A stretch of 44,755 nt of DNA, from positions 1-44,755 of the IMG/VR virus record IMGVR_UViG_3300009610_000043. One strand, given 5' to 3'. The position numbers and the translations under genes were made by a program. Below, piece after piece: positions 2,644-44,755 of this stretch. The stretch is from a virus. A model generated the notes under the pieces. That model was not told the origin of the DNA, ran no database searches, and saw only the letters and a list, made by a program, of their open reading frames with translations. Position 1 is the first letter of the stretch; the number at the start of each line of letters is the position of its first letter.

Positions 2644-2952
2644 ATGCAATTCACAACATTCGTTCGCAAGCCGTTCGTCGTTGATGCAGTAGAGGTCACA
2701 ACGGAGAACATTGCCGAAGTGGCTAAGTACGTTGGTGACTTGAGAGAGAAGGAGGACGGGACTCCTTATATTCTCGTGGATCGCCGCCTGGTTCCGAACG
2801 TGTTCCGGGTGTATCCAGGGTTCTTCATGACGAAGATGGGGGAGAACGTTCGCTGCTATTCGAGGAAGATCTTCAAGGAGCAGTTCATGGTGCAGACTGA
2901 TGAGATCAAGCCTTGGGTGGACTTCATGGCGAAGAGTGGGGATTCGCAATAA
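2644..2952 (+). CDS. conserved phage protein, unknown function
   Basis: The 102-residue protein opens with FVRKPFVVDAVEVTTENI, a pattern seen in many small phage proteins: a beta strand, then an alpha-helical segment with VAKYVGDL. It has no membrane segment and no visible catalytic motif. The stop lies directly before promoter element 1, so this gene closes the transcription unit running from the replication fusion. I recognise the general family from actinophage genomes but know no function for it. Upstream, 2602-2643 is a 42-bp gap with nothing notable. Confidence 0.82.
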   Translation: MQFTTFVRKPFVVDAVEVTTENIAEVAKYVGDLREKEDGTPYILVDRRLVPNVFRVYPGFFMTKMGENVRCYSRKIFKEQFMVQTDEIKPWVDFMAKSGDSQ

Positions 2953-2969
2953 AAACAACGATTATAATG
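2943..2969 (+). promoter_or_regulatory. promoter element copy 1 (TTCGCA-N14-TATAATG)
   Basis: TTCGCA lies at 2943-2948, then 14 bases, then TATAAT at 2963-2968 followed by G. The right part (AACGATTATAATG) is shared almost letter for letter with six other sites in the window. It is followed at once by a terminator-like hairpin at 2970-3000. Confidence 0.75.
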
Positions 2970-3023: not shown

Positions 3024-3389
3024 ATGAATAATATGAATGTGGTTTTGGTCAAGATTGAGGATGATCGAGTCGTTGTTCTCAATGGAGAAAAGTACTTGGT
3101 TGTTGACAAGATTGCTTTAGAAGAGATTAATGAACTTGTTCCGACAAGAGTCTATACTCGAACCGAAGCTTTGCAGTCTGCAATTTTAGAAATCCTTAAA
3201 GCGCATCCGAATATTGCAAGTTCTGAGATTCGCAAACATCTTAACGAGAAATACGAGTTTCCAGAGTTCACTGGTAACACCATGCGCGGCTTGCTAGGTC
3301 GGATGAAAGATAAGGGATTGATTCGAGTTCATGGTAATAGGAATACCGCGACTTGGTCAATCATGCGTCGTCTGAGCGACGATAAATAG
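3024..3389 (+). CDS. winged-helix domain protein, putative regulator
   Basis: This 121-residue protein starts at an ATG behind AAGGA. Residues 1-45 are a short beta-rich domain (VVLVKIEDDRVVVLNGEKYLV). Residues about 50-115 look like a winged helix: helix AILEILKAHP, turn, helix SSEIRKHLNEKY, recognition helix TMRGLLGRMKDKGLI, then a wing RVHGNRNTATWSI. This is the usual shape of DNA-binding regulators and of replication-initiation winged helices. The gene stands directly downstream of promoter copy 1 and before the long structured non-coding stretch, so a regulatory role is plausible. The fold is read from the sequence pattern; the target is unknown. It is the only obvious regulator-like protein in the genome. 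Confidence 0.82.
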   Translation: MNNMNVVLVKIEDDRVVVLNGEKYLVVDKIALEEINELVPTRVYTRTEALQSAILEILKAHPNIASSEIRKHLNEKYEFPEFTGNTMRGLLGRMKDKGLIRVHGNRNTATWSIMRRLSDDK

Positions 3390-3827
3390 GCTTTAGGCTC
3401 AGAGCGTTGGTGTGCTAAGAATCGTCGGAGACGCTTGCCCGCCTCTTTGATGAAGTCTTACTGTCTGCAGTACCCCCGCCAGTACGTCAGACCACACCAT
3501 GTAGACTGTGAGGGTCACACAGCAGTCTTGAGGATCGATCCCCTCAAGTCGTTAAACAAAAAACCGCATTCGTGATCGGCGATGGGGAAATAAACCCACG
3601 TCGGATCGGAGACTTTTGTGTCTATCTTGTCTAGACATTGTCAAGGGTTCCTGGTGCACAAGACAGGAACCGCGAATGGACGCGGGGGGTAGGTGTACCG
3701 AGAGTTGCCTATCCCCTGCACTTTCTTTGATGGGGGCTAGCCGTTTTTCATCCAGCTGTCAGTTGTATGAGGCTAAGTCTTAAACGACAAAAATGCGCCC
3801 ATCATCTTCTCAACAAAGGAGAAACCA
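3390..3827 (+). ncRNA. structured non-coding region, candidate RNA(s)
   Basis: These 438 bp hold no credible gene but a dense run of hairpins: 3463-3473 with 3482-3492 (4+5 bp around a 2-base mismatch), GACTG 3504-3508 with 3523-3527, CTTGAGG 3527-3533 with 3542-3548, GGTTCCTG 3646-3653 with 3664-3671, and GGGGTAGG 3686-3693 with 3708-3716 (one bulge). A three-tier hairpin follows: 3728-3737/3795-3804, 3738-3742/3771-3775 and 3748-3751/3767-3770. The region looks GC-richer than its surroundings. I could not fit a tRNA cloverleaf. The element AAGTCGTTAAACAAAAAAC at 3546 has a looser echo near 3776. Whether this is one RNA or several, or DNA structure at an origin, cannot be decided by eye. Confidence 0.5.
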
Positions 3828-5131: not shown

Positions 5132-5158
5132 TTCGCAGGATTTACAACGCTTATAATG
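5132..5158 (+). promoter_or_regulatory. promoter element copy 2
   Basis: TTCGCA at 5132-5137, a 14-base spacer, then TATAAT at 5152-5157 and G. It matches the consensus GTTCGCA...ACAACGCTTATAATGGAA. It drives a short unit with the small membrane protein at 5187, closed by the terminator at 5386. Confidence 0.75.
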
Positions 5159-5186
5159 GAAGAAAATCTACAAAGGAGTTATGAAA

Positions 5187-5372
5187 ATGAACGACACAAC
5201 TATGGAAGCAATCACTGCTGAAGTGGAGAGGGTTTTGGCTGAGAGAGACAAGATTTCGAAGGGTACCGTTATGGGAACCTTGGGGACCGCGTTGACCGCT
5301 GCCGGAACTTACATCCTCATCAGGAAGTGGGTTGACCGCCGTGTTGCGCGTCAGATTCGAAAGAACCGTTGA
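5187..5372 (+). CDS. small single-pass membrane protein
   Basis: Of two candidate ATGs (5181 and 5187), the second is 8 bases from AAAGGAG and is preferred; it gives 61 residues. A charged helix (EVERVLAERDKISKG) leads into a glycine/alanine-rich hydrophobic segment (TVMGTLGTALTAAGTYILI, about residues 28-46) and a basic tail rich in arginine. The topology resembles the small glycine-zipper membrane proteins in the 37-39 kb island, especially the one at 39092, and it shares their promoter type. It is expressed alone between promoter copy 2 and a strong terminator. Function unknown. Confidence 0.8.
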   Translation: MNDTTMEAITAEVERVLAERDKISKGTVMGTLGTALTAAGTYILIRKWVDRRVARQIRKNR

Positions 5373-7344: not shown

Positions 7345-7366
7345 CTACTAAACAACGATTATAATG
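7345..7366 (+). promoter_or_regulatory. promoter element copy 3 (right half only)
   Basis: CTACTAAACAACGATTATAATG shares the AAACAACGATTATAATGAAGGAGAG stretch almost exactly with copy 1 but lacks TTCGCA at the expected place (7340-7345 reads CCGACC). TATAAT is 7360-7365. It lies 33 bases before the VRR-NUC gene body and directly before a ribosome-site hairpin. Confidence 0.65.
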
Positions 7367-8238: not shown

Positions 8239-10893
8239 GTGTTCATTGACGAAGATGATTATCTAGCCCATTATGGAATTCTCCGTCGTTCTGGTCGATA
8301 TCCATGGGGTTCCGGTCAAAATGAAAATCAACGAAACAAGATCTTCCTTCAGACTGTTTCGGATTTGAGAAAGCAAGGCCTAACGGAAGTCGAAATTGCT
8401 AGAGGATTTGATTGCTCCACTACCGATCTTAGAGCAGCAAAGTCTGAAGCTAAAAATCAACAAAAGCAAGCTGATATTGCAATGGCTCAGCGGTTGAAGG
8501 AAAAAGGATATTCAACCAACGCCATTGCTAACAGAATGGGAATTCCAGAATCATCTGCTAGAAATCTCTTAAAGCCAGGCGAAGCAGATAAAAATGATGT
8601 TCTTATTTCAACAACCGCCATGCTTAAGGCTCAAGTTGATGAAAAAGGCTTTGTAGATGTTGGTAAGGGCGTAGAGAACTATATTGGTGTCACTTCTACA
8701 AGACTTGATACCGCGATATCTATGGTTCGTGGCCAAGGATATGAACTTCACTATGTTACGGTTAAGCAACTTGGTACAGGTCATGAAACTAAGATGAAGG
8801 TGTTAGGTCCTCCTGGATCTACTCAAAAAGATGTTTGGCAACATCCAGAAAAGATTCAACAGATTACTAATTATTCTGATGATGGTGGTCGATCTTATAC
8901 TAAGACCCAAACTCCTATTTCAATCAGCCCAAAGCGGGTTGGTATTGTTTACGCCGATCAAGGTGGTTCGAAAGCAGATGGAGTAGTTTATGTTCGGCCA
9001 GGAGTTGACGATATTGCTCTTGGCGGGTCAAAGTACGCCCAAGTTCGTATTCAGGTTGGAGATGGCCATTATATTAAGGGAATGGCTATGTACAAGGATG
9101 ATTTACCAGATGGTGTAGACCTTATGTTTAATACGTCTAAAAGAGATACTGGTAACAAACTCGATGCAATGAAGCCACTTACTGATGATCCAGATCTTCC
9201 GTTTGGTTCTATCGTTCGTCAAATTGTAGATAAGCCTGGATCTCCAAACGCCAAAGTAACTTCTGTTATGAATATTGTTAATGAAGAAGGAAACTGGGCT
9301 GATTGGTCTCGTACTTTGTCTTCTCAGATGTTGTCTAAGCAAAGCCCGCATCTCGCTAAGACACAGTTAGATATGACTTATGAACGTCGTCTAAATGATT
9401 ATGAAAATATCAGCAATCTTACAAACCCAACAGTTCGTAAGAAGTTGCTTATGGATTTTGCTGGTAGTACTGATTCGGCAGCCGTTCATCTAAAGGCTGC
9501 AGCAATGCCAGGTCAAGCAGTAAGAGTTATTCTTCCAGTATCTTCGATTCAACCAAATCAAGTTTATGCCCCCACTTTTAGAAATGGCGACACTGTTGTA
9601 TTGATTCGTCACCCACATGGTGGGACATTTGAGATTCCAAGATTAACGGTTAACAATAATCATGCTGAATCTAAGAAGCTTCTTGGGGATGCAAGAGATG
9701 CAATTGGTATTCATCACGAAACAGCTAAGAGATTGTCGGGTGCTGATTTCGATGGAGATACAGTTCTTGTAATTCCAGATTCCGCACGTAGGATTAAAGA
9801 TTCGCCTGCTCTAAAAGCGCTTAATGATTTCGATCCTAGAGCATCGTACCCAGCATATGAGGGTATGAAGCCTATGCGTAATACGCAAACAGAGATGGGG
9901 AAGATCTCTAATCTTATTACGGACATGACTATTCAAGGCGCCAGTCATGATGAAGTTGCCCGTGCTGTTAAGCATTCCATGGTTGTTATTGATGCGGAAA
10001 AACATAATCTTAATTATAAACTGTCTTATAATGATAACAACATTAGACAACTTAAAGAGAAGTATCAAAGACAACCCAGTGGTTCAACAGGTGCCGCCAC
10101 CCTTATCTCAAGGGCTAAGTCTGAGATACGGGTACCTGAAAGAAAAGAACGCAGCCAAGGTAAAGGTGGCCCTATTGATAAGGCTACTGGTGAACGCGTC
10201 TTTGAAGAAACAGGTAGGGTACATTGGAAGTCTGGTATGCCCATCACTACCACCACCACTAGGTTGGGTGAGGCTAAGGATGCGCATACTCTATCATCAG
10301 GTACCCCTATTGAACGGTACTATGCAGATCATTCTAATCAACTCAAGTCTTTAGCTAATACGGCTAGGCTTCAAGCAATTAATACCCCCCCTTCAAAGTA
10401 TCTGCCCTCTGCTAAGAAGGTGTATGCTAATGAAGTAGCCTCCCTCAATTCTAAATTGACCGTGGCTAAAAGTAATGCCCCTCTTGAACGACAGGCCCAG
10501 TTAATAGCCAACAGTATTGTTAAGACTAAGAAGAGTTACAATCCTAACATGGATAAGGATACGCATAAGAAGGTTGAATACCAGGCCCTTCAAGAAGCCC
10601 GTGCACGTACGGGTGCAGATAAACAACAGATCCGCCTCACTAATCAAGAATGGGACGCCATACAGGCGGGAGCTATCAGTGATTCTAAACTCTCCGAGAT
10701 CTTAACACATGCAGACATGGATGTAGTACGTAAGCTTGCAACACCTAAGACTGAGATACTAATGACAAGTAACATGACTAATAGAGCCAACGCTATGTTT
10801 GCATCTGGCTATACTAGATCAGAGGTAGCACAAGCACTTGGTGTATCAGTTAGTACATTGGATGTTGCAACAGTAGCAACAACAACTGAATGA
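8239..10893 (+). CDS. DFDGD-motif protein, putative single-chain RNA polymerase with HTH repeats
   Basis: The protein has 884 residues; GTG start behind AAGGAGGTGATTT. The N-terminus contains HYGILRRSGRYPWGSG (about 11-26), then two helix-turn-helix units (LRKQGLTEVEIARGFDCSTT and RLKEKGYSTNAIANRMGIPE, within about 43-113). The core holds VVLIRHPHGGTFEIPRLTV and then SGADFDGDTVLVIP with DFDGD at 503-507, the metal-binding signature of double-psi beta-barrel RNA polymerases (RNAP beta', YonO-like, RdRP-like). After it comes TEMGKISNLITDMTI and HSMVVIDAEKHNLNYK. A third helix-turn-helix (GYTRSEVAQALGVSVSTLD) ends the protein. The motif and size fit a phage DNA-dependent RNA polymerase; activity is inferred. 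The 3' quarter appears to use somewhat different codons. It lies immediately before the late-gene boundary. Confidence 0.82.
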   Translation: MFIDEDDYLAHYGILRRSGRYPWGSGQNENQRNKIFLQTVSDLRKQGLTEVEIARGFDCSTTDLRAAKSEAKNQQKQADIAMAQRLKEKGYSTNAIANRMGIPESSARNLLKPGEADKNDVLISTTAMLKAQVDEKGFVDVGKGVENYIGVTSTRLDTAISMVRGQGYELHYVTVKQLGTGHETKMKVLGPPGSTQKDVWQHPEKIQQITNYSDDGGRSYTKTQTPISISPKRVGIVYADQGGSKADGVVYVRPGVDDIALGGSKYAQVRIQVGDGHYIKGMAMYKDDLPDGVDLMFNTSKRDTGNKLDAMKPLTDDPDLPFGSIVRQIVDKPGSPNAKVTSVMNIVNEEGNWADWSRTLSSQMLSKQSPHLAKTQLDMTYERRLNDYENISNLTNPTVRKKLLMDFAGSTDSAAVHLKAAAMPGQAVRVILPVSSIQPNQVYAPTFRNGDTVVLIRHPHGGTFEIPRLTVNNNHAESKKLLGDARDAIGIHHETAKRLSGADFDGDTVLVIPDSARRIKDSPALKALNDFDPRASYPAYEGMKPMRNTQTEMGKISNLITDMTIQGASHDEVARAVKHSMVVIDAEKHNLNYKLSYNDNNIRQLKEKYQRQPSGSTGAATLISRAKSEIRVPERKERSQGKGGPIDKATGERVFEETGRVHWKSGMPITTTTTRLGEAKDAHTLSSGTPIERYYADHSNQLKSLANTARLQAINTPPSKYLPSAKKVYANEVASLNSKLTVAKSNAPLERQAQLIANSIVKTKKSYNPNMDKDTHKKVEYQALQEARARTGADKQQIRLTNQEWDAIQAGAISDSKLSEILTHADMDVVRKLATPKTEILMTSNMTNRANAMFASGYTRSEVAQALGVSVSTLDVATVATTTE

Positions 10894-10914: not shown

Positions 10915-11160
10915 ATGAAGAAGTCTATGCTTACTACTGTTGACAATCCTCATTCACCCTTTGACGAATTCTTAGCTTGGTACGCCCATGATGTTTCAAG
11001 TGGCCACCATACTTGTGCGTTCCTTGCAAGAATACTGAATGATTCAGATCAATTGTCAGATTCTGATCAAGATTTAGCTGTCAACCAAGCCATCGACGAG
11101 ATAGTAAGTGAGAACGTTTCTGGAATTTATAGAAAAGTTACACAAGAAGTTCCAGATTAA
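10915..11160 (+). CDS. small conserved phage protein next to DFDGD gene
   Basis: The 81-residue protein starts at ATG 10915 behind AGGAAAGGATG. It contains LTTVDNPHSPFDEFLAWYAHD, then HHTCAFLARILNDSDQLSD and a helical AIDEIVSENVSGIYRKVTQ. I recognise this as a small protein widely conserved in phages of Gram-positive bacteria that often sits beside the DFDGD gene; no function is known to me. It is soluble and acidic. Constant linkage would suggest a partner or regulator of the polymerase-like protein (inference). Confidence 0.82.
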   Translation: MKKSMLTTVDNPHSPFDEFLAWYAHDVSSGHHTCAFLARILNDSDQLSDSDQDLAVNQAIDEIVSENVSGIYRKVTQEVPD

Positions 11161-29386: not shown

Positions 29387-32300
29387 TGTAGACGACCGCA
29401 TTGTCCGGATGGAATTCGACAATGCCTCATTCGAAAGAAAAATCGGGAGCACGATCACTAGCCTTGGCCAGTTGGAAAAGGCCCTTAAATTCGATGCGGC
29501 TAAGCAAGGCTTCTCTGAGATTAGCTCAATGGCTGACAAATTCCATCTTACTGGAATGGGCTCAGCTATTGACGGTATCAGTACTAAGTTTCTTGCGCTC
29601 AGTACCATTGCCATTACTGCGCTTTCGAATATTGTAAACAAAGCTATTGATACTGGTCTTCAATTAGCTAAGCATCTCAGCTTGGACCAGGTTATTTCGG
29701 GGTTCAAAGAGTACGAACAGAATATGACGTCTATTCAGACGATTCTGTCTAATACTAAACAAGATGGCACTAATCTTGAAGATGTTAATGGCGCTCTTGG
29801 TACTTTGAACGAATACGCCGATAAGACCATTTATAATTTCGGTCAGATGACTCGAAACATCGGTACCTTTACGGCCGCTGGTGTTGATTTGGATACGTCG
29901 GTCCAGTCCATCAAGGGTATTTCGAACCTGGCTGCAATGTCCGGGTCAAGCGCTGATCAAGCTTCAAGTGCCATGTATCAGCTTTCACAGGCTGTTGCTA
30001 CTGGCTCTCTGAAGTTGATGGACTGGAACTCGGTTGTCAATGCTGGTATGGGCGGCGAAGTCTTCCAAAAGGCTTTGTTCGAAACCGGTAAAGCTATGGG
30101 AACTATTGCTGATGTTCCCATGGGTCAATCGTTCCAAGAGTGGACTGATTCTGGTCATTCGTTCAGAGAGTCTCTCCAAGAGGGTTGGGTTACTGCAGAC
30201 GTTTTGACTACCACTCTTCAGGGTTTCACTGGAGAGATGACCGAAGCACAACTCACAGCGATTGGTTATACGCAAGAACAAGCTGCTGAAATTATAGCTC
30301 TTGGGCAGACTGGCGTTGAAGCTGCTACGAAGGTTAGAACGCTTACTGGCCTTATTGAGACAACGAAGGAAGCAATTGGTTCTGGATGGTCAGAATCATT
30401 CAAAATCGTATTTGGTAACTTCGAAGAAGCGACGCAATTGTTCAGTGGTGCTAGTGGCATCATTGGTCATATTGTAAAGACGAATGCGGATGCTCGTAAC
30501 GAGTTGCTTCAAGGGTGGTCAGATCTCGGCGGCAGGACTCTGCTGTTTGAGTCTATACAAACTGCCCTCTTCAATCTATATGATATTATTAAGCCAATCA
30601 AAGAAGCTTTCCACGATATTTTCCCGCCGCTGACTGCGGAACGACTCTTTGAAATGACCCAACGTTTCTCTGAGTTTGCTGCCGCATTGAAGCCAAGCGG
30701 CGAGACTGTTGAGAAGCTTAAGGACATATTCAGAGGTCTTTTCGGAGCACTCGAAATTGGTTGGGAAATAGTAAAGGAAGGCGCCAAATTTATTGGCGAA
30801 CTGTTTACTAGTATTACTGGTGCTGGCAGTGGCCAATTTACTACGTTCTTGGCGAACATCGGTAATTTCCTCACGGAACTGAACGAGAAGCTTGTTGCTG
30901 GCGGCGGAATCAAGCAGTTCTTCGTTGATCTGAAGGAAAAGATTACCGAGTTCTTCAGCGCGGCTAGCGCCTGGGTTCAAGAATCTGGTATTATTCCGTT
31001 CTTTATTGATTTGAAAGATAATCTCGTCATCTTCTTTCAGGAAGCACAAAGATTTATTGACGAGTCCGGGATCAAGGATTTCTTTGAAGATCTCAAAGAC
31101 GCCATTAAAGATCCTGCTGAATTTGTAGACGATCTAAAGAACAACCTAATCGAGCTGTTTGATAATTTCAAGCCTGATATTCTCGAAAAGGCTGGCGGAG
31201 CCTTCGAGAGAGTTGGTCAAAGATTCGAAACGCTCAAGGGTATATTTAAGAAGGCTAAGGAACTTTGGGAACCATTTTCAGACGCTTTGTCTAAGGTCGC
31301 AGAGGTTTTAGACGATACGTGGGAAGCCATTAAGCGATGGTTCGAAGAGCTTGGTGACAAAATCGCTGCCGTCATGGGACCTGGCGATTTCGATGCAGCT
31401 GTTGACGCAATCAATGTGGGTCTTCTTGGCGCTATAGCTGGCCTTATCGCAAAGTTCATGAGCGATGGCTTCAACTTCGATATTGGAAGTGGACTCTTCG
31501 ATAAGATTGGTAAGTCGTTCGAAGAACTTACTGGCGTTCTTACAGCGATGCAGAGCAGTATTAAAGCTGATGCTCTGCTGAAGATTGCTGGAGCGATCGC
31601 TCTTTTGACAGCGTCTGTTGTTGTTCTCTCCTTGATCGACTCCGCTGCTTTGACGAAGTCGCTTACGGCAATGGCCATTGGCTTCGGTCAGCTTATGGCT
31701 TCGTTTGCGATCCTTACAAAGATGTCCGCTGGGCCAAAGAGTGCTGCTAGTTTGAGTCTTCTCGCTGGCGGCATGCTTCTTCTTTCTGGCGCTATCTTAA
31801 TTCTTGCTTTGGCTGCTGAGAGCTTGTCGGACATGGATTGGGGAGAACTCGCCAAGGGTCTCACTGGTGTTCTTGCTTTGATGACCATTATGACTGGCGC
31901 GGCAGTTATCCTGTCTCAGAACACAGGTGGGCTGGTTAAAGCCGGTCTAGGCATGATTGGGATTGCTGTCGCACTTGCCATTCTTGCTGGGGCAATGAAG
32001 ATCTTCGCCACAATGTCTTGGGAGGACATGGGTAAGGGTTTCACTGCTGTAGCAGGAGGCCTTCTCGTCATCGCTGGTGCACTACAGCTAATGCCTAATG
32101 GCGCAAGTATGGCCCTTCAAGGCGTTGGGCTTATGTTGGTTGCCACAAGCATGGCCATTCTTGCTGGTGTTGTTAAAATCTTCGCTGACATGGAATGGGG
32201 AGAGATGGGTAAGGGGTTCGCCGCAATTGCGGGCGGGCTTCTTATTATCGCCGGCGCAATGCAGCTCATGCCTCCTACTATGCCGCTCATTGGCGCAGGA

Positions 32301-36335: not shown

Positions 36336-36577
36336 TGGACGATTTTGTTTGGATATTGGCTATATGTATTCTTACGGTGATTTTAGTATGGCAGTTTCTC
36401 GTAGCTAGGCATAATCGAAAAAGTTACGGCCAAATCGTAATCACAGAAGCAATAGATGGAAAGAAGACGTTTTCCTTGGAGATAGATAAGAATCCTGACG
36501 AGATTGCGAGTATGGGTTTTATCACATTCAAGGTGACAAAAGAGACACCAGAGGATCTTGACGATCTCGCAAACTAA
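36335..36577 (+). CDS. membrane-anchored conserved phage protein
   Basis: The protein has 80 residues, with the start overlapping the hub gene stop (TAATG). An N-terminal helix (FVWILAICILTVILVWQFLV, about 4-23) anchors it; a soluble part follows, SYGQIVITEAIDGKKTFSLEIDKNPDEI, then FKVTKETPEDL. I recognise the soluble pattern (GQIVITE..DGKK.FSLE.DKNP) from many phages of Gram-positive hosts, where the gene also follows the tail genes. Function unknown. It opens the membrane-protein island and is the only member tied directly to the late operon. Confidence 0.85.
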   Translation: MDDFVWILAICILTVILVWQFLVARHNRKSYGQIVITEAIDGKKTFSLEIDKNPDEIASMGFITFKVTKETPEDLDDLAN

Positions 36578-36592
36578 ACATCGCTTATAATG
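36566..36592 (+). promoter_or_regulatory. promoter element copy 4
   Basis: CTCGCA at 36566-36571 (one mismatch to TTCGCA), 14 bases, TATAAT at 36586-36591 and G. It lies over the end of the 36335 gene and serves the gene at 36612. Confidence 0.7.
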
Positions 36593-36611: not shown

Positions 36612-36908
36612 ATGAGGCGATTTCTTGTGAGAAAGCCAACAGTTCTGGATGAGCCCATTGAAAAGGTTCTGACTGGGATGAACATGTATAGCCCGGAGGA
36701 TCCAGAGTATTTGACGTTGATGAATCATCTTGAACGGCTGAATCGAATGAAGGCGGAAAATCGCCAGACTCGAGTTAGCCCGGATACGATGGCAATCGTC
36801 GTCGGCAACATTCTGGGGATTCTGGTTATCGTGGCATACGAGCAGAAGCACGTCATGGTATCGAAGGGATTGGGGTTTGTAATCAAGGCTAAGGAGCCTA
36901 GAAGCTGA
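36612..36908 (+). CDS. conserved phage membrane-associated protein
   Basis: The 98-residue protein has an ATG behind GAAAGGATTAG. A soluble first half (PIEKVLTGMNMYSPEDPEYLTLMNHLERLNRMKAE) is followed by RVSPDTMAIVVGNILGILVIVAYEQKHVMVSKGLGFVI, which contains one membrane helix (about 62-78). The pair 'EKVL-MYSPDS-EY-HLERL' and 'VSPDT-AIV-GN-LGILIIVAYE' is a pattern I know from many phages; the role is unknown. It is expressed from promoter copy 4 and ended by the terminator at 36939. Confidence 0.87.
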   Translation: MRRFLVRKPTVLDEPIEKVLTGMNMYSPEDPEYLTLMNHLERLNRMKAENRQTRVSPDTMAIVVGNILGILVIVAYEQKHVMVSKGLGFVIKAKEPRS

Positions 36909-37151: not shown

Positions 37152-37178
37152 TTCGCAATATAAACAACGCTTATAATG
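37152..37178 (+). promoter_or_regulatory. promoter element copy 5
   Basis: TTCGCA 37152-37157, 14-base spacer with ATATAAACAACGCT, TATAAT 37172-37177, G. It is nearly identical to copy 2 and sits 26 bases before the start of the 69-residue gene. Confidence 0.78.
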
Positions 37179-37202: not shown

Positions 37203-37412
37203 ATGTTAAATCGCACACTTCGCGTGGATCTAGTGAAAAAGAATGAGTCGCATCAGGTTGATAAAAACCAAGATGATACCGACTTCGCCGACAAGGCCAC
37301 AATCGTGGGAATTGTTGTTGAAGGAGCTATCAAAAGGGTTGGCATCGCCGTGTGTGCGTACGTCGTCTTGGACACCATCCGCCGAGTCGCGGTTGCGTCA
37401 GCATCAAACTGA
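37203..37412 (+). CDS. small membrane protein
   Basis: The 69-residue protein has an ATG behind AAGGAGTGAAG. A polar N-terminus (NRTLRVDLVKKNESHQVDKNQDD) leads to ADKATIVGIVVEGAIKRVGIAVCAYVVLDTIRRVAVASA, with one membrane helix in the second half and positive charges around it. It is followed by a hairpin at 37420. It is another member of the island's set of small one-helix proteins; no named family. Confidence 0.78.
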   Translation: MLNRTLRVDLVKKNESHQVDKNQDDTDFADKATIVGIVVEGAIKRVGIAVCAYVVLDTIRRVAVASASN

Positions 37413-37462: not shown

Positions 37463-37597
37463 ATGAGTGAAGGCGCGAGACTGCTTATTTTTACGATACT
37501 CGCTGGATTTATAATCGTTGATGTTGTGATTGAAATTGTCAGAATCCTAGTTCGCAAAAAAAACAAGGATTATAATGAGAGGAAGACGAGGCACTAG
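37463..37597 (+). CDS. 44-residue single-pass membrane protein
   Basis: ATG 37463 follows TAAGGATCTAAT. MSEGARLLIFTILAGFIIVDVVIEIVRILV is one hydrophobic helix with a few charges, followed by a basic tail (RKKNKDYNERKTRH). Promoter copy 6 lies inside its coding sequence. It is too short for family recognition and is supported by position and hydrophobic pattern. Confidence 0.6.
   Translation: MSEGARLLIFTILAGFIIVDVVIEIVRILVRKKNKDYNERKTRH
37551..37577 (+). promoter_or_regulatory. promoter element copy 6
   Basis: TTCGCA 37551-37556, 14 bases (AAAAAAACAAGGAT), TATAAT 37571-37576 and G. It overlaps the end of the 37463 gene and serves 37685 onward. Confidence 0.72.
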
Positions 37598-37684
37598 CTT
37601 TGTTGGTGAAAGACCCATATATCTAGTGTGGAAGCAAAATCCATGCACCGTCTACTTCTCATTTTACTTTTCACTGGAGGACCA

Positions 37685-37945: not shown

Positions 37946-38045
37946 GTACGGGTTTTGGAAATTTCTCGGAGATGTGTTTCTGACATGTCTTACGGGAGGA
38001 TTCTGGTTGATTTGGATTTTCGTTAGGGAGATGCGAAATCGATGA
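37929..38045 (+). CDS. 38-residue conserved membrane protein
   Basis: The GTG start lies 6 bases after GAAGGAGA, inside the end of the previous gene, and the stop overlaps the next start (ATGA). The sequence begins STRRKYGFWKFLGDVFLTC and continues LTGGFWLIWIFVREMRNR: a basic start, two short hydrophobic stretches with GG, and a basic end. The pattern YGFW...GD.FLT..TGG.WLIW.F.REMR is one I know from other phages. Coupled at both ends, it is probably made in fixed ratio with the DUF6353-like protein that follows. Confidence 0.75.
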   Translation: MSTRRKYGFWKFLGDVFLTCLTGGFWLIWIFVREMRNR

Positions 38046-38797
38046 GTAAATTGTCTCGATTCAGTGGAACCGTTCTAAGGAACATAAAAGCTAATTCGCC
38101 CGTTATCTTGTCTGTTGCCGCTGGAGTTGGGACAATCGCTACCGCTTTGTTGGTAGGAAAAGCATCCTTTGAGGCAGCTAATGCTATTAGAGATCATGAA
38201 GAGCAGAATGCTCCAGCTATTAATCCGAAAGAACGGCTAAAGGATAGAACTAAACTTGTCTGGAAATTCTATATTCCACCGGCAATTTCGACCGTTTCTA
38301 CTATCATGTGTGTTGCTGGGGCTAATCGAGTGGGAGCTCAAAAAACCTTTGCCGCTAACGCTGCACTCTCTGTCATCGAACGAGCATATTCTGATTATAG
38401 AGAAAAAACGGTTGAAGAGCTTGGTCCACGTAAAGATCAATCCATTCGAGATAAGGTTGTTGCTGACCAAATAGCTAAAACGCCATCTCCATCTCAAGAT
38501 ATTCTGGTGACCGGTCCAGGAAACATTTTGTGTTGTGAGATGTTCACTATGCGATATTTCGCAAGTGATATGGAGAAGTTGAGAAAGGCTCAGAACGAAC
38601 TCAATTCTAAATTATTGAAACATGATTATGCTACATTCGATGATTTCTATTATATTATCGGATTGCAGCCAACCACAACTTCAGGAAATCTTGGATGGAC
38701 GTCAGATAAATTGATGGAGCTTGAATTCTCCACAGCATTGTCAGATGACGGCCGTCCATGCATCACGTTCACGTACAATTACACCAAAACACTATAA
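38042..38797 (+). CDS. DUF6353-like membrane protein, paralogue 1
   Basis: The protein has 251 residues; ATGA overlap start. The N-terminus has NSPVILSVAAGVGTIATALLVGKASFEAANAI (TM1, about 18-42), then a charged loop, KFYIPPAISTVSTIMCVAGANRVGAQKTFAANAALSVIERAYSDYRE (TM2 about 76-96 and a long helix), a soluble middle and a C-terminal domain (FDDFYYIIGLQPTTTSGNLGWTSD). The layout matches the phage family I know as DUF6353. Paralogue 2 at 40495 has the same order of parts. Function unknown; membrane location is visible in the sequence. Confidence 0.85.
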   Translation: MSKLSRFSGTVLRNIKANSPVILSVAAGVGTIATALLVGKASFEAANAIRDHEEQNAPAINPKERLKDRTKLVWKFYIPPAISTVSTIMCVAGANRVGAQKTFAANAALSVIERAYSDYREKTVEELGPRKDQSIRDKVVADQIAKTPSPSQDILVTGPGNILCCEMFTMRYFASDMEKLRKAQNELNSKLLKHDYATFDDFYYIIGLQPTTTSGNLGWTSDKLMELEFSTALSDDGRPCITFTYNYTKTL

Positions 38798-39039: not shown

Positions 39040-39066
39040 TTCGCAGAAAAAACATGCGTTATAATG
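39040..39066 (+). promoter_or_regulatory. promoter element copy 7
   Basis: TTCGCA 39040-39045, 14 bases (GAAAAAACATGCGT), TATAAT 39060-39065 and G. It drives the 54-residue gene, which is closed by a strong terminator at 39266. Confidence 0.75.
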
Positions 39067-39091
39067 AGAGAATTACTAAAGGAGAAATATC

Positions 39092-39256
39092 ATGATCGAA
39101 GCTATGACAAATAGCGACAGTTCGTTGCCGATGAAGCATCAGATTTCCAAGCTCGTTCTCGGCACACTTGCCGGGTTCGCTGCTGGAAAGCTGACTGAAA
39201 AGGCTTACGACGCCGCACTTGCTTGCTATAAGAACAGGAAGATGATCGTAAAGTGA
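39092..39256 (+). CDS. 54-residue glycine-zipper-like membrane protein
   Basis: ATG 39092 behind AAAGGAGAAATATC. After a polar start (MIEAMTNSDSSLPMKHQ) comes ISKLVLGTLAGFAAGKLTEKAYDAALACY, with spaced Gly/Ala typical of helix packing, then a basic end. Placed alone between promoter copy 7 and a strong terminator, it resembles the promoter/gene/terminator cassette at 5132-5418. Confidence 0.75.
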   Translation: MIEAMTNSDSSLPMKHQISKLVLGTLAGFAAGKLTEKAYDAALACYKNRKMIVK

Positions 39257-39265
39257 TCAATCACA

Positions 39266-39295
39266 GGGAGAGCCTACATGGGTTCTCCCTTTTTT
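39266..39295 (+). terminator. strong intrinsic terminator
   Basis: GGGAGAGCC pairs with GGGTTCTCCC (6 bp GGGAGA/TCTCCC plus inner pairs) around a short loop, then six T. It ends the unit from promoter copy 7. Confidence 0.88.
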
Positions 39296-40364: not shown

Positions 40365-40498
40365 TGAGCAATCATGAACGTGACCAATTGAAGAGAGGCA
40401 ATCCTTCAAAGAAATGGGCAGAAGAAGTTGATAAAATGCGCCCTGAGGAAGTAGTCAACATTTACAACCGTCTGCGGGCAGAGGGAAAGTCAAAGTGA
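40364..40498 (+). CDS. 44-residue conserved phage protein
   Basis: ATG 40364 lies in a TAATG overlap with the previous stop. MSNHERDQLKRGNPSKKWAEEVDKM then RPEEVVNIYNRLRAEGKSK: short, basic and helical. This small pattern (KRG-PSKKWA..VDKM...-V--IYNRLR-EGK) recurs in phages near the same neighbours. It ends in a GTGA overlap with the paralogue 2 gene. Confidence 0.75.
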   Translation: MSNHERDQLKRGNPSKKWAEEVDKMRPEEVVNIYNRLRAEGKSK

Positions 40499-41379
40499 AG
40501 AACAAACTTATACGGATTATTCCGAATTCTGTGGTCGGCAAAGTTAGTCGGTCCATTCTGAAGGCCAAGAAGAATTCCCCTCATATCTTCTTTGCAGCGG
40601 GTATAGCAGGAACAATCACAAGTACGGTTCTGGCTTGTCGAGCAACCTTGAAGCTTTCTTCAACTCTCGATGAGATCAAGCATGACGTTGAGGTGCTTGA
40701 GACAGATCCGGTTCGAAACGAAATGCCAACTGAGGAATGGCGTCTTGATACGGTTTATATTTATGGTAAGGCTAGTCTCAGGCTCGTCAGGCTTTATGGG
40801 CCTGCGGCTGTGGTTGGCGTAGTTTCCATTGGAATGCTTACTGGTTCACACGTTCAATTGGTTCATCGTAACACCGCACTGATGGCAGCGTATGCAGCCG
40901 TTCAGAAGGCTTATGACGAGTATCGTGAACGAGTACGATATCAGTTCGGCGAAGAAGCAGAACTCGAGTTGTATCACGCATCAAGGACCGAGTTGGTTAA
41001 AGATGCTAGTGGCGAAGTCATTGAGGCAAGGGTAGTCGATCCAAACAGGTATTCTCCTTACGCAAAGTTCTTTGATGAGTATTCTCGTCATTGGAACAAG
41101 GATCCTGAATTGAATCGACTGTTCATTCAGTGTCAGCAGAACTATGCTAATGATCTTCTAAATGCTCGTGGTCATATTTTCCTCAACGAAGTATACGATC
41201 AGCTTGGCATTGATAGATCAAAGGCTGGTGCGGTTGTTGGTTGGGTGAAAGGTGGAGAAGGTGATAACTACATTGATTTCGGAATGTTCCAAGCATACAA
41301 TTCACAGTTCGTGAATGGGTGGGAGCGTAGCATTCTTCTTGATTTCAATGTCGACGGAGTTATCTACGACAAGATTTAG
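40495..41379 (+). CDS. DUF6353-like membrane protein, paralogue 2
   Basis: The protein has 294 residues with a GTG start overlapping the previous stop. KNSPHIFFAAGIAGTITSTVLACRATLKL (TM1), a loop with EVLETDPVRNEMPTEE, YGPAAVVGVVSIGMLTGSHVQLVHRNTALMAAYAAVQKAYDEYRERV (TM2 plus helix) and a longer C-terminal domain (NARGHIFLNEVYDQLGIDRS, then GAVVGWVKGG). The order of parts equals paralogue 1, with a longer inter-domain insert (about 165-210). The pair could form a hetero-oligomer. Confidence 0.86.
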   Translation: MKNKLIRIIPNSVVGKVSRSILKAKKNSPHIFFAAGIAGTITSTVLACRATLKLSSTLDEIKHDVEVLETDPVRNEMPTEEWRLDTVYIYGKASLRLVRLYGPAAVVGVVSIGMLTGSHVQLVHRNTALMAAYAAVQKAYDEYRERVRYQFGEEAELELYHASRTELVKDASGEVIEARVVDPNRYSPYAKFFDEYSRHWNKDPELNRLFIQCQQNYANDLLNARGHIFLNEVYDQLGIDRSKAGAVVGWVKGGEGDNYIDFGMFQAYNSQFVNGWERSILLDFNVDGVIYDKI

Positions 41380-41387
41380 GAGAAATT

Positions 41388-42149
41388 ATGAAACTTGAAC
41401 TAAAAGGATGGGTAATTCCGGCAAGTGTTGGCGTTGTCTCATTCGCAGCTGGTTTTGGCGTTGGTTATTTTATTTCAAAACATAAAAAGGTTGACGCCAA
41501 AATCGAAGAGGTAAAAGAAGAACTTCGTTCTGAGAATGTTCAACTCGAATTCAAATTTGAAGAAGTTGAACAACGCTTTGCTAGTGCGATGCAACAAGCT
41601 GATCATGTAGTCAAAAAATTAAAAGATGATGGTCAAGCATTTCTAAACAAGTTTAATGAGCCGGTTATCCAAGCAGCTAAGGATAACCATCCAAGTAATG
41701 ATAAAAGAGGTACCAACTTGGTTTCAATTAACAATATGGATGAGGAGGTTTTGACAACCAACGTCTTCCAAAGTGATGACGATGACGATTGGGACTACGA
41801 AGATGAACTTAGTCAGCGTAGCGAAGCAGCTCCTTACATTATTCACAGAGATGAATACGACCAAAACGAAGAAGATTACAGCACGTCGACCTTGATGTAT
41901 TACGAGGGCGATAATATTCTTTGTGATGAACACGATGTCCCTGTTTACAATCCCGACAAGGTAGTTGGCAAACTAATCTTCGGACATGGATCACGTGATC
42001 CTAGCATCTGTTATATTCGAAACGATCAACTTCTAGCTCTGTATGAAGTCATTATTGACCACGGATATTTTCAAACAGAAGTCCTTGGTCAACAAATTGA
42101 GCATGGTATCAGGAGACATCGTTCCCTTCCAAAATTTAGGATGGAATAG
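41388..42149 (+). CDS. membrane-anchored conserved phage protein (253 aa)
   Basis: The protein has 253 residues; ATG behind AGGAGAAATT. TM helix near 8-28 (VIPASVGVVSFAAGFGVGYFI), then charged coiled coil (KVDAKIEEVKEELRSENVQLEFKFEEVEQRF), a very acidic linker (SDDDDDWDYEDE) and a C-terminal domain PYIIHRDEYDQNE...STLMYYEGDNILCDEHDVPV then FGHGSRDPSICYIRNDQLLALYEVI. I know the C-terminal pattern ('PYVI--EEF-E--Y---SLTYYADGVL-D') from phages of Gram-positives. Function unknown. It looks like a membrane tether carrying a soluble domain on a long coiled arm. Confidence 0.87.
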   Translation: MKLELKGWVIPASVGVVSFAAGFGVGYFISKHKKVDAKIEEVKEELRSENVQLEFKFEEVEQRFASAMQQADHVVKKLKDDGQAFLNKFNEPVIQAAKDNHPSNDKRGTNLVSINNMDEEVLTTNVFQSDDDDDWDYEDELSQRSEAAPYIIHRDEYDQNEEDYSTSTLMYYEGDNILCDEHDVPVYNPDKVVGKLIFGHGSRDPSICYIRNDQLLALYEVIIDHGYFQTEVLGQQIEHGIRRHRSLPKFRME

Positions 42150-42696: not shown

Positions 42697-44755
42697 GTGG
42701 ACTTTTATAAGATCAGGATAAAGGAGACTAAGGGAGTTCCACAAGCTTACCCGGATTGGATTGTTGATGGTGTTGATGATTTAATGGTTAGAGGAGGTTC
42801 ATTCTACGCTGTATGGGATGAATCTCTTGGTATGTGGTCCACAGACGAATTCAATGTTCGACGGCTTGTAGATGCTGACATTCACGATTTCGTTGAGAGC
42901 GCCAAACAAAAAGGTACTGTCTTCGAACCTCTTTTCACAAGAAACTTTAGCACAGGAACTTGGGAGCGATTTAATAAGTATATTCGGAATCTTCCAGACA
43001 GCGGTAATTACTATCCGCTTGACGAAACAATAACTTTTGCAAACACAGAGGTTAAGAAAAAAGATTATGTTAGTAAGCGACTGCCCTATTCCCTCGAGGC
43101 AGGAAAGACAGAAGCTTGGGATGAACTCCTGGGCGTGTTATATTCTGCTGATGAGCGAGATAAAATTGAGTGGGCCATCGGAGCAATCGTCTCAGGTGAT
43201 TCGAGATGGATCCAGAAATTCTTAGTATTCTATGGTCCTCCAGGAACCGGCAAGTCCACAGTAATCAGCATTATCGAGAAGCTCTTCGAAGGATACGTAG
43301 CTACGTTTGAAGCTAAGGCCTTGACGAGTAGCAATGGAACATTTGCTATGGAGGCGTTTGAGAGTAATCCGCTGGTAGCAATCCAACACGATGGCGATTT
43401 GTCTAGAGTCGAAGATAACACAAAGTTGAATTCAATCGTTGGCCACGATTCGATGCAACTCAACGTGAAGTATCGATCGGCTTTCACGATTCGTCCTAAT
43501 GCGTTTGTTATTGTTGGAACGAATAAGCCAGTAAAGATTTCAGACGCTAAGGCTGGTAATACACGACGCTTGATTGATGTGCATCCAACCGGAGCTAAGA
43601 TTGAACCAGGGCGATATCATATCCTTACGGAGAACATTAATTACGAGCTAGGCGCCATAGCTTATAAATGTCTCCAGCGGTATCGCGACATGGGTAAATT
43701 CTATTATGAGAATTATATCCCGACGAAGATGATGATGTTAACGGATACCTTCTACAACTTTGTGGAAGCTCACTTCGATATCTTCAAGTCTCAGGACGGA
43801 ATTCAACTCAAGCATGCCTGGGATCTGTACAAGCAGTATTGTGAGGATGCCAACATTGTCAAGCGTCTCCAGTATCATGAAGTTCGTGATGAGCTAACGA
43901 GTTATTTCGAAGACTTTAAGGATCGGCATTTCATGGGGGAGAAGGAATACAGAAGCGTTTACATTGGTTTTAAAGGTCTACCAGAGCAAGGACCTATACC
44001 ATTTGTACCAGATACTTCATACGTAATTGAACTGGATGATTACGATCCTGTTTATCATGGCTCAGCTTTTGATAACGCATATCCTGATCTACCAGCACAA
44101 GAAGCAAAGCCAAGTGGTTTCCCAGGTAAGAAATGGGAACGAGTCACAACAACCTTGCGAGATATAGATACAACAAAACTTCATTACGTGCAGGTCCCGG
44201 AACAGCATGTCGTCATTGATTTCGATTTGGTGGACGAAGATGGCGAAAAGGATCTTGAGCAGAACATAGAACGAGCGTCGAAGTTGCCGCCCACTTACAC
44301 AGAATTGAGTAAGAGTGGGAAAGGTCTTCATTTGCATTATATTTATAGTGGCGACGTTACTGAGTTGGATTCTGCTCTTGATGTTGGTATTGAGATTAAG
44401 ACCCTCTTGGGAGACAGTGCTCTCCGTAGGAAGCTTACAAAATGCAACAACCTTGATATTGCTGTTCTCAGTAGTGGCCTTCCAAGGAAAGAGAAAAAGG
44501 TGATTGAGACTAAGAGTATACAAAGTGAGCGGGGACTTCGTGAACTAATTGATCGCAATCTTCGTAAGGAGATTCATCCTGGAACAAAGCCCTCAATCGA
44601 CTTTATTCACCACATCCTTGAAGACGCTTATAACGACGGACTTAGTTACGACGTGTCTGATCTTAGATCTGTTATTCTTACATTTGCTTTAAGAAGTACG
44701 CATCAAGCAACGGCGTGCGTCAAGATGGTACAGACAATGAAGTTTGTCGGTAAGA
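42697..44755 (+). CDS. SF3 helicase and PrimPol part of helicase-PrimPol-PolB fusion (continues at base 1)
   Basis: GTG 42697 lies behind AAAGGAGGGTTT. Joined across the circle it gives about 1261 residues with no stop. Residues to about 160 are an N-terminal domain. The SF3 helicase has Walker A GPPGTGKST near 180, a Walker B-like HDGD near 231, motif C GTNKP near 274 and RRLIDVHP. After a linker, an archaeo-eukaryotic primase core follows: IDFDLVD near 507 (two metal aspartates), SKSGKGLHLHY near 538 and IEIK near 565. A helical stretch leads into the polymerase from about 690. The primase is placed after the helicase, the reverse of the usual order in primase-helicases. One chain would prime, unwind and copy DNA. 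The last 123 bases repeat the window start. Confidence 0.92.
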   Translation, partial: MDFYKIRIKETKGVPQAYPDWIVDGVDDLMVRGGSFYAVWDESLGMWSTDEFNVRRLVDADIHDFVESAKQKGTVFEPLFTRNFSTGTWERFNKYIRNLPDSGNYYPLDETITFANTEVKKKDYVSKRLPYSLEAGKTEAWDELLGVLYSADERDKIEWAIGAIVSGDSRWIQKFLVFYGPPGTGKSTVISIIEKLFEGYVATFEAKALTSSNGTFAMEAFESNPLVAIQHDGDLSRVEDNTKLNSIVGHDSMQLNVKYRSAFTIRPNAFVIVGTNKPVKISDAKAGNTRRLIDVHPTGAKIEPGRYHILTENINYELGAIAYKCLQRYRDMGKFYYENYIPTKMMMLTDTFYNFVEAHFDIFKSQDGIQLKHAWDLYKQYCEDANIVKRLQYHEVRDELTSYFEDFKDRHFMGEKEYRSVYIGFKGLPEQGPIPFVPDTSYVIELDDYDPVYHGSAFDNAYPDLPAQEAKPSGFPGKKWERVTTTLRDIDTTKLHYVQVPEQHVVIDFDLVDEDGEKDLEQNIERASKLPPTYTELSKSGKGLHLHYIYSGDVTELDSALDVGIEIKTLLGDSALRRKLTKCNNLDIAVLSSGLPRKEKKVIETKSIQSERGLRELIDRNLRKEIHPGTKPSIDFIHHILEDAYNDGLSYDVSDLRSVILTFALRSTHQATACVKMVQTMKFVGK
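44633..44755. repeat. terminal direct repeat, right copy
   Basis: Identical to bases 1-123. See the left copy; the repeat shows that the genome unit is 44632 bp and closes on itself inside the replication gene. Confidence 0.97.

Follow-up and report, generated by a model that had tools for sequence, protein, structure and literature searches.

A repeated three-box element as the probable promoter of a single-chain phage RNA polymerase

The window, by which we mean the whole stretch of viral DNA analyzed (44,755 nucleotides), contains a repeated element, YTCGCA-N14-TATAATG, and the question that it raises is which RNA polymerase reads it. A preliminary description had proposed either a host sigma factor with a phage helper or the phage's own polymerase. 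The window carries an exact 123-bp terminal repeat (1–123 and 44633–44755) and a DNA polymerase frame that crosses the junction, which shows a circularly closed contig, although its record lists no end repeats. The window thus probably represents an entire phage genome of ∼44.6 kb. All of the genes identified in it lie on the + strand, and its gene content groups it with the Gordonia cluster DJ, Rhodococcus ReqiPepy6, and Lactococcus 1706 phages.

Pattern matching revealed six copies of the element, on the + strand only. Five have the exact form TTCGCA-N14-TATAATG, and the copy at 36566 carries C for T with the N14 spacer kept. The copies and a half-copy are given below with their scores in a matrix built from 1,084 sites of other phages, the window excluded.

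2943–2969, + strand: element copy 1 (exact), 33.3 bits, predicted RNA start G2969, upstream of ORF 3024–3389
5132–5158, + strand: element copy 2 (exact), 37.6 bits, predicted start G5158, followed by ORF 5181–5372 and then the helicase gene
7352–7366, + strand: half-copy ACAACGATTATAATG, matrix score under 8 bits, followed downstream by the endonuclease-like, exonuclease, and RNA polymerase genes
36566–36592, + strand: element copy 3 (C variant), 36.7 bits, predicted start G36592, upstream of ORF 36612–36908
37152–37178, + strand: element copy 4 (exact), 36.0 bits, predicted start G37178, upstream of ORF 37203–37412
37551–37577, + strand: element copy 5 (exact), 39.5 bits, predicted start G37577, heading a structured RNA (RNA fold)
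39040–39066, + strand: element copy 6 (exact), 40.2 bits, predicted start G39066, upstream of ORF 39092–39256 and a terminator

These positions are in agreement with the preliminary description, which had reported six copies with an invariant 14-base spacer from YTCGCA to TATAATG, a seventh (7345) reduced to its right part, and no copy between 11 and 36 kb. The half-copy is probably a decayed element. At up to two mismatches, the window gives 7 matches compared with 1.29 expected from dinucleotide shuffles, and none of 100 shuffles reached 7. This argues against an equal frequency in shuffled sequence, the outcome named beforehand as counting against the element. The seventh of these matches, at 16580 with two mismatches, is probably due to chance. 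The matrix scan of both strands, a check that had also been proposed, returned exactly the six copies (33.3–40.2 bits) and no further site of at least 8 bits; first-order random sequence gives 0.1 sites per genome. A blind search of the window for gapped 5-mer pairs ranked TCGCA-N14-TATAA first, with 6 occurrences observed and 0.03 expected.

A sequence logo was drawn from 479 unique copies, with the G of TATAATG as position 0; letters that the search pattern specifies are invariant by construction, whereas the flanks are free. It reads Y−26 T C G C A−21, an A-rich stretch from −20 to −17, WW at −16/−15, and ACA from −14 to −12, followed by four variable bases, Y−7, TATAAT from −6 to −1, G0, A+1 (90%), R+2, and A+3. 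For the family as a whole, the conserved middle is WWACA, with four poorly conserved bases behind it, and this corrects the ACAACG(C/A)T noted earlier in the window. No −35 hexamer near TTGACA is conserved at 16–18 bp in the 479 copies. Upstream there is only a T-rich trend, which in many copies resembles the T tract of a preceding terminator.

Searches of related phages, as suggested in the preliminary description, showed that the element is common to a large siphovirus lineage with hundreds of relatives, whose hosts include Streptomyces, Gordonia, Arthrobacter, Rhodococcus, Microbacterium, Curtobacterium, and clostridial bacteria; a diverged form occurs in phages of Faecalibacterium and Lactococcus hosts. 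The pattern scan of viral contigs yielded 116 stretches, many contigs having two or three copies, compared with 10 for the more permissive reversed pattern. When 20 isolates or records bearing the polymerase described below were searched over the whole record, 15 had copies at up to two mismatches, all on the forward strand, and the reversed control pattern was found in none of them. The remaining five carry diverged forms. In its typical or a diverged form, the element is therefore present in all 20, almost without exception on the coding strand of the genome; one reverse-strand match was seen (Oengus). Curtobacterium phage Eevee has 8 diverged sites, and Siphovirus 29632 has 6 of varying strength. 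Lactococcus phages 1706 (11 copies) and CHPC971 (10 copies) share TTTTACA-N4-CTATAGTAGA, and Faecalibacterium phage Oengus has 12 copies of ACGCGAAAAAnnCA-N4-cCTTTATGGA. The TATAAT hexamer, which is that of a sigma-70 −10 box, drifts to TATAGT in the Lactococcus phages and to TTTATG in Oengus. Apart from related prophages, bacterial chromosomes hardly ever contain the strict motif: 257 billion bases of bacterial genomes yielded 17 stretches, and the polymerase gene is present in 10 of these 17 genomes. At up to three mismatches, the element is lacking from seven unrelated phages whose hosts belong to the same or related genera.

Within the window, copies 2, 3, 4, and 6 lie ∼20–26 nt before small ORFs with a good Shine-Dalgarno sequence, and copies 1 and 5 precede predicted short RNAs. 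The interval 39040–39290 has the layout of a complete promoter-gene-terminator cassette.

2969–2998, + strand: 30-nt hairpin-terminator RNA headed by copy 1, its stem beginning at the predicted first base
5181–5372, + strand: small ORF, first gene after copy 2, start possibly 5187, Shine-Dalgarno AAAGGAG at 5172
36612–36908, + strand: small ORF with a hydrophobic segment (phrog_5818), first gene after copy 3, Shine-Dalgarno AAAGGA
37203–37412, + strand: small ORF with a hydrophobic segment, first gene after copy 4, Shine-Dalgarno AAGGAG
37577–37672, + strand: structured small RNA behind copy 5, closing stem from the first base, fold z −3.83
39092–39256, + strand: 54-aa ORF, the lone gene between copy 6 and the terminator
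39265–39290, + strand: intrinsic terminator-like hairpin closing the copy 6 cassette

Two sequence tests suggest that the RNA 5′ end is the G of TATAATG. First, the Shine-Dalgarno sequence follows this G by 0–1 nt in 15 of the 324 Shine-Dalgarno-led copies (at the next base in 13 and after one base in 2), as in TATAATG-AAAGGAGGCTCTATG; a sigma-70 start, ∼7 nt past TATAAT, would strip it from these messages. Second, 109 of 495 copies have no recognized Shine-Dalgarno sequence and start codon behind them; of these, 96 have a T tract within reach, and 74 of the 96 can form a closing stem of 6 bp or more in which the first bases pair with the arm preceding the tract, these Shine-Dalgarno and terminator counts being approximate because both were assigned by simple rules. 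Compared with shuffled partners, pairing of the 5′ bases with the terminator arm is in excess at offsets −2 to +5 (z 2.6–5.1), most strongly at −1 to +4 (z 3.6–5.1), and is at chance level from −4 upstream and past +10. The outermost pair most frequently involves the G, and some stems extend 3–4 bases farther where AAT meets the tail's ATT. A first version of the pairing test, with poor terminator detection, had given a weaker signal in the same direction. In the window, the RNAs begun at G2969 and G37577 open their stem on the first base (z −2.5 and −3.8, respectively). A start at the G would place TATAAT at −6 to −1.

These results bear on the reading of the element as an ordinary host sigma-70 promoter with unusual spacing and no phage factor, which we regard as very improbable. 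The element resembles a sigma-70 (SigA) promoter in its TATAAT hexamer but differs from it in several respects: there is no TTGACA-like hexamer at 16–18 bp, and the upstream box instead stands at 14 bp, a distance that is indeed shorter than the usual spacing, as had been pointed out, and is fixed across hosts of two phyla; the putative start comes right after the hexamer rather than ∼7 nt downstream; and the element is nearly missing from bacterial chromosomes other than at related prophages. A scan of the window for sigma-70-like sites gave no excess over shuffles. We conclude from the sequence that the element is probably not a sigma-70 promoter.

Copies without a Shine-Dalgarno sequence often appear to head short structured RNAs with a closing stem that begins at the G; the window has two such predicted RNAs, and roughly a fifth of all element copies appear to head a small RNA. 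The RNA at 37577–37672 belongs to a family of ∼100 nt located directly behind the promoter, in which the alignment shows compensatory changes in the 3′ hairpin. The family model matches the window at 53 bits and Conley, Tanis, ReqiPepy6, and Paella at 50–98 bits; Conley was in the training set, and the other three were outside it. No Rfam family matches these RNAs at curated thresholds. Members are found at the following positions.

Conley 30556–30668; Tanis 29830–29942; ReqiPepy6 41340–41450: members of the ∼100-nt RNA family
L042:896; L033:3043; L348:5112: further members of the same family

By eye, one early hairpin of this family resembles a tRNA T-arm in some members. Other short RNAs behind the element consist of two or three tandem, near-identical hairpin modules whose sequence varies from phage to phage (L005:2828, L007:13033, L047:6486, L330:9083, L294:4255, L316:1205, L337:1592, and L060:3081); as a speculation, they could be decoys for a host factor. 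Inspection by eye also placed tRNA or tRNA-like sequences directly downstream of some copies (L309:187, L045:8007, L271:7056, Oengus ∼2936, and Lactococcus 1706 ∼31080). Separately, a Pistol ribozyme was detected in the window at 3366–3432, at the end of ORF 3024–3389 (46.4 bits against a gathering score of 34.5).

A candidate enzyme for reading the element is encoded in the window itself, next to a small gene of unassigned function.

8239–10893, + strand: predicted single-chain two-barrel RNA polymerase, 884 aa (phrog_4291, 1256 bits), DFDGD at residues 503–507
10915–11160, + strand: 81-aa protein (phrog_4303), function not assigned, nearly always adjoining the polymerase (9 of 10 relatives)

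The polymerase has helix-turn-helix (HTH) segments at residues ∼40–112 and 847–875, and Pfam RdRP matches, weak but consistent, occur in this protein as in its relatives. When 25 relatives were aligned, SGADFDGD proved invariant at residues 500–507; DxDxD is the metal-binding signature of two-barrel polymerases (PMC10770324). We built an AlphaFold2 model (mean pLDDT 79, pTM 0.65), for which Foldseek returned QDE-1 (E 4.6e-7), P74-26 gp62 as the second-best match (E 5.1e-6), and also plant RDR2. The TM-scores of these matches are 0.2–0.4 over long alignments with high rmsd, and the fold assignment therefore rests on E-value, probability, and active site together. By these data, the product is a QDE-1-like, two-barrel RNA polymerase with the DxDGD metal-binding motif in place, and catalysis is predicted. 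None of the scanned ORFs gave a Pfam match to a T7-type RNA polymerase, and the enzyme that is present has another fold. tblastn found the enzyme in 250 phage records, where its annotation varies: “helix-turn-helix DNA-binding domain protein,” “hypothetical protein,” and “RNA-dependent RNA polymerase” make up most of the labels, and “structural protein,” “tail fiber protein,” and “excise” also occur. Lactococcus 1706 orf75 and Siphovirus contig89 gp106 are among the copies concerned.

Every element-bearing isolate tested encodes an HTH-flanked, QDE-1-like polymerase of ∼880 aa. Among contigs chosen by the polymerase alone, 24 of 25 carry the motif, always on the polymerase strand. Conversely, the polymerase is encoded by all 20 motif-bearing viral contigs of at least 50 kb and by 16 of 20 at 40–50 kb (counted by hand from tables, with weak partial matches left out), compared with none of 10 control-pattern contigs, which are mostly shorter. 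The 40–50-kb contigs without a clear match are perhaps fragments. The motif is thus present with the polymerase and absent without it, but the cases come from one lineage and are not independent. The lineage shares its terminase, capsid, and replication genes as well; 243 records have the terminase at 60% identity or more, against 250 with the polymerase, and 9 of the 10 bacterial genomes bearing motif and polymerase carry the same terminase, the tenth (G131) being a fragmented assembly. Because these phages form one lineage with shared core genes, co-occurrence does not single out the polymerase, and the association is a property of the lineage, confounded by shared ancestry. The conserved non-structural genes of the lineage are the DNA polymerase, a single-strand annealing protein, a helicase, an endonuclease-like protein, an exonuclease, the RNA polymerase, and the 81-aa protein. 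Judged by sequence, the RNA polymerase is the only recognizable transcription enzyme in this set, and no sigma factor, MotA-like factor, or other activator was recognizable among the proteins scanned with Pfam and PHROG.

Taken together, the results make the element a likely promoter for the single-chain RNA polymerase that the phage itself encodes (8239–10893), an enzyme of the QDE-1/two-barrel type. Of the two readings offered in the preliminary description, this one is favored because the phage encodes such an enzyme and the deduced start misfits sigma-70. The polymerase would bind the upstream TYCGCA and WWACA boxes (−26 to −12), perhaps via its HTH domains; TATAAT would then melt, and RNA would begin at the G. 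Each copy would head a short cassette, made up either of a Shine-Dalgarno sequence with one or a few small genes or of a structured RNA with its own terminator. We infer that this enzyme, rather than another factor conserved in the lineage, reads the element and that the HTH domains make the contacts. The enzyme may act with a partner, for which the adjoining 81-aa protein is a possible candidate.

The second reading, a host sigma with a phage helper, is disfavored and, in our judgment, unlikely. Here host SigA would use TATAAT as its −10 box, and a MotA-like phage activator at TYCGCA/WWACA would replace the −35 contact; TATAAT is the consensus −10, and the upstream box is near where an activator could stand in for −35. 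This reading is made less likely by the apparent start, which puts TATAAT at −6 to −1, and by the drift of the hexamer to TATAGT and TTTATG, although the hosts of the Lactococcus phages and of Oengus have the same SigA −10 consensus. Furthermore, the conserved genes include no recognizable activator, phrog_4303 being a possible one, and the seven unrelated phages of similar hosts do without the element. A stoperator-like operator or protein-binding repeat with no promoter function is a highly doubtful reading: repeated intergenic sites in phages are often operators, but the element is non-palindromic, occurs on one strand only, stands at a constant place immediately ahead of Shine-Dalgarno sequences or RNA 5′ ends, and is accompanied by no conserved repressor that we could see in the lineage.

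The sigma-70 reading has a precedent in the genome announcements of the cluster DJ Gordonia phages Vardy and Conley, in which a 43–50-bp intergenic motif was read as containing a sigma-70 −10 box (PMC9671010, PMC10868162). That motif is almost certainly the same element: it is likewise repeated and intergenic, lies in the central membrane-protein region, and contains TATAAT, and our searches located 6 copies in Vardy and 8 in Conley, most of them within this part of the genome. The announcements differ from the present work in making no link to the polymerase (a “hypothetical protein” in both), to other phage groups, to a start site, or to small RNAs. Our literature search found no paper linking the motif to the polymerase; subscription papers were mostly outside the search, and earlier work may exist. 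The motif is not described in the passages retrieved from papers on Microbacterium and Rhodococcus phage diversity.

The closest parallel to a promoter read by the phage's own polymerase is Thermus phage P23-45, whose two RNA polymerases have their own promoter motifs, absent from relatives without the enzyme (PMC10770324). There, phage-specific motifs are read by single-chain two-barrel polymerases, the same presence/absence argument was used, and P74-26 gp62, the second-best fold match above, is a homolog of P23-45 gp64; the motifs are different, however, and the start sites come from experimental mapping. A further single-chain phage polymerase with a DxDGD active site is the well-studied two-barrel enzyme YonO of Bacillus phage SPbeta, a phage of Gram-positive bacteria, but its sequence is very remote (blastp E 0.009, with the match lying outside the active site). 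The promoter of YonO was stated in 2017 to be still to be determined (PMC5467207), and the SPbeta yonK upstream region contains no site when scored by the element matrix. The non-virion RNA polymerase of phiKZ starts at the G of TATG, and jumbo-phage RNA polymerases may need an extra factor (PMC7598289). The G start in TATG (phiKZ) and an upstream AACA box (AR9) resemble the element, but these enzymes are multisubunit and their boxes lie elsewhere, so the resemblance may be coincidence.

The polymerase gene lies downstream of copy 2 and of the decayed half-copy, suggesting that the enzyme transcribes its own gene. If so, the first polymerase transcript needs either a virion-carried enzyme or a host promoter. 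The annotation of Lactococcus 1706 orf75 as “structural protein” provides a lead toward the former; our literature search for the virion proteome of this phage found no paper. A broader proposal, to which we give somewhat less than even chances, is that in phages of actinobacteria and firmicutes a QDE-1-type polymerase with built-in HTH domains and no sigma reads a three-box promoter starting at G and expresses exchangeable one-gene or structured-RNA cassettes, with some members perhaps carrying the enzyme in the virion and acting at once after infection.

The assignment would provide a concrete promoter and a predicted start base for an enzyme kind related to YonO, in at least 250 sequenced phage records, so that a question of annotation would become a polymerase-promoter pair open to direct testing; isolates exist that grow on laboratory strains of Gordonia, Arthrobacter, Streptomyces, and Lactococcus. 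Because roughly one copy in five appears to head a small RNA, the element would also offer a way to find many small phage RNAs that are missing from catalogs. Finally, in most linear relatives, the genome end lies just past the polymerase gene and its small downstream neighbor; by these ends, the two motif regions of the window would fall mid-genome and toward the right end. The region following the promoters in the window also encodes two paralogous DUF6353 proteins (phrog_2152), at 38042–38797 and 40495–41379.
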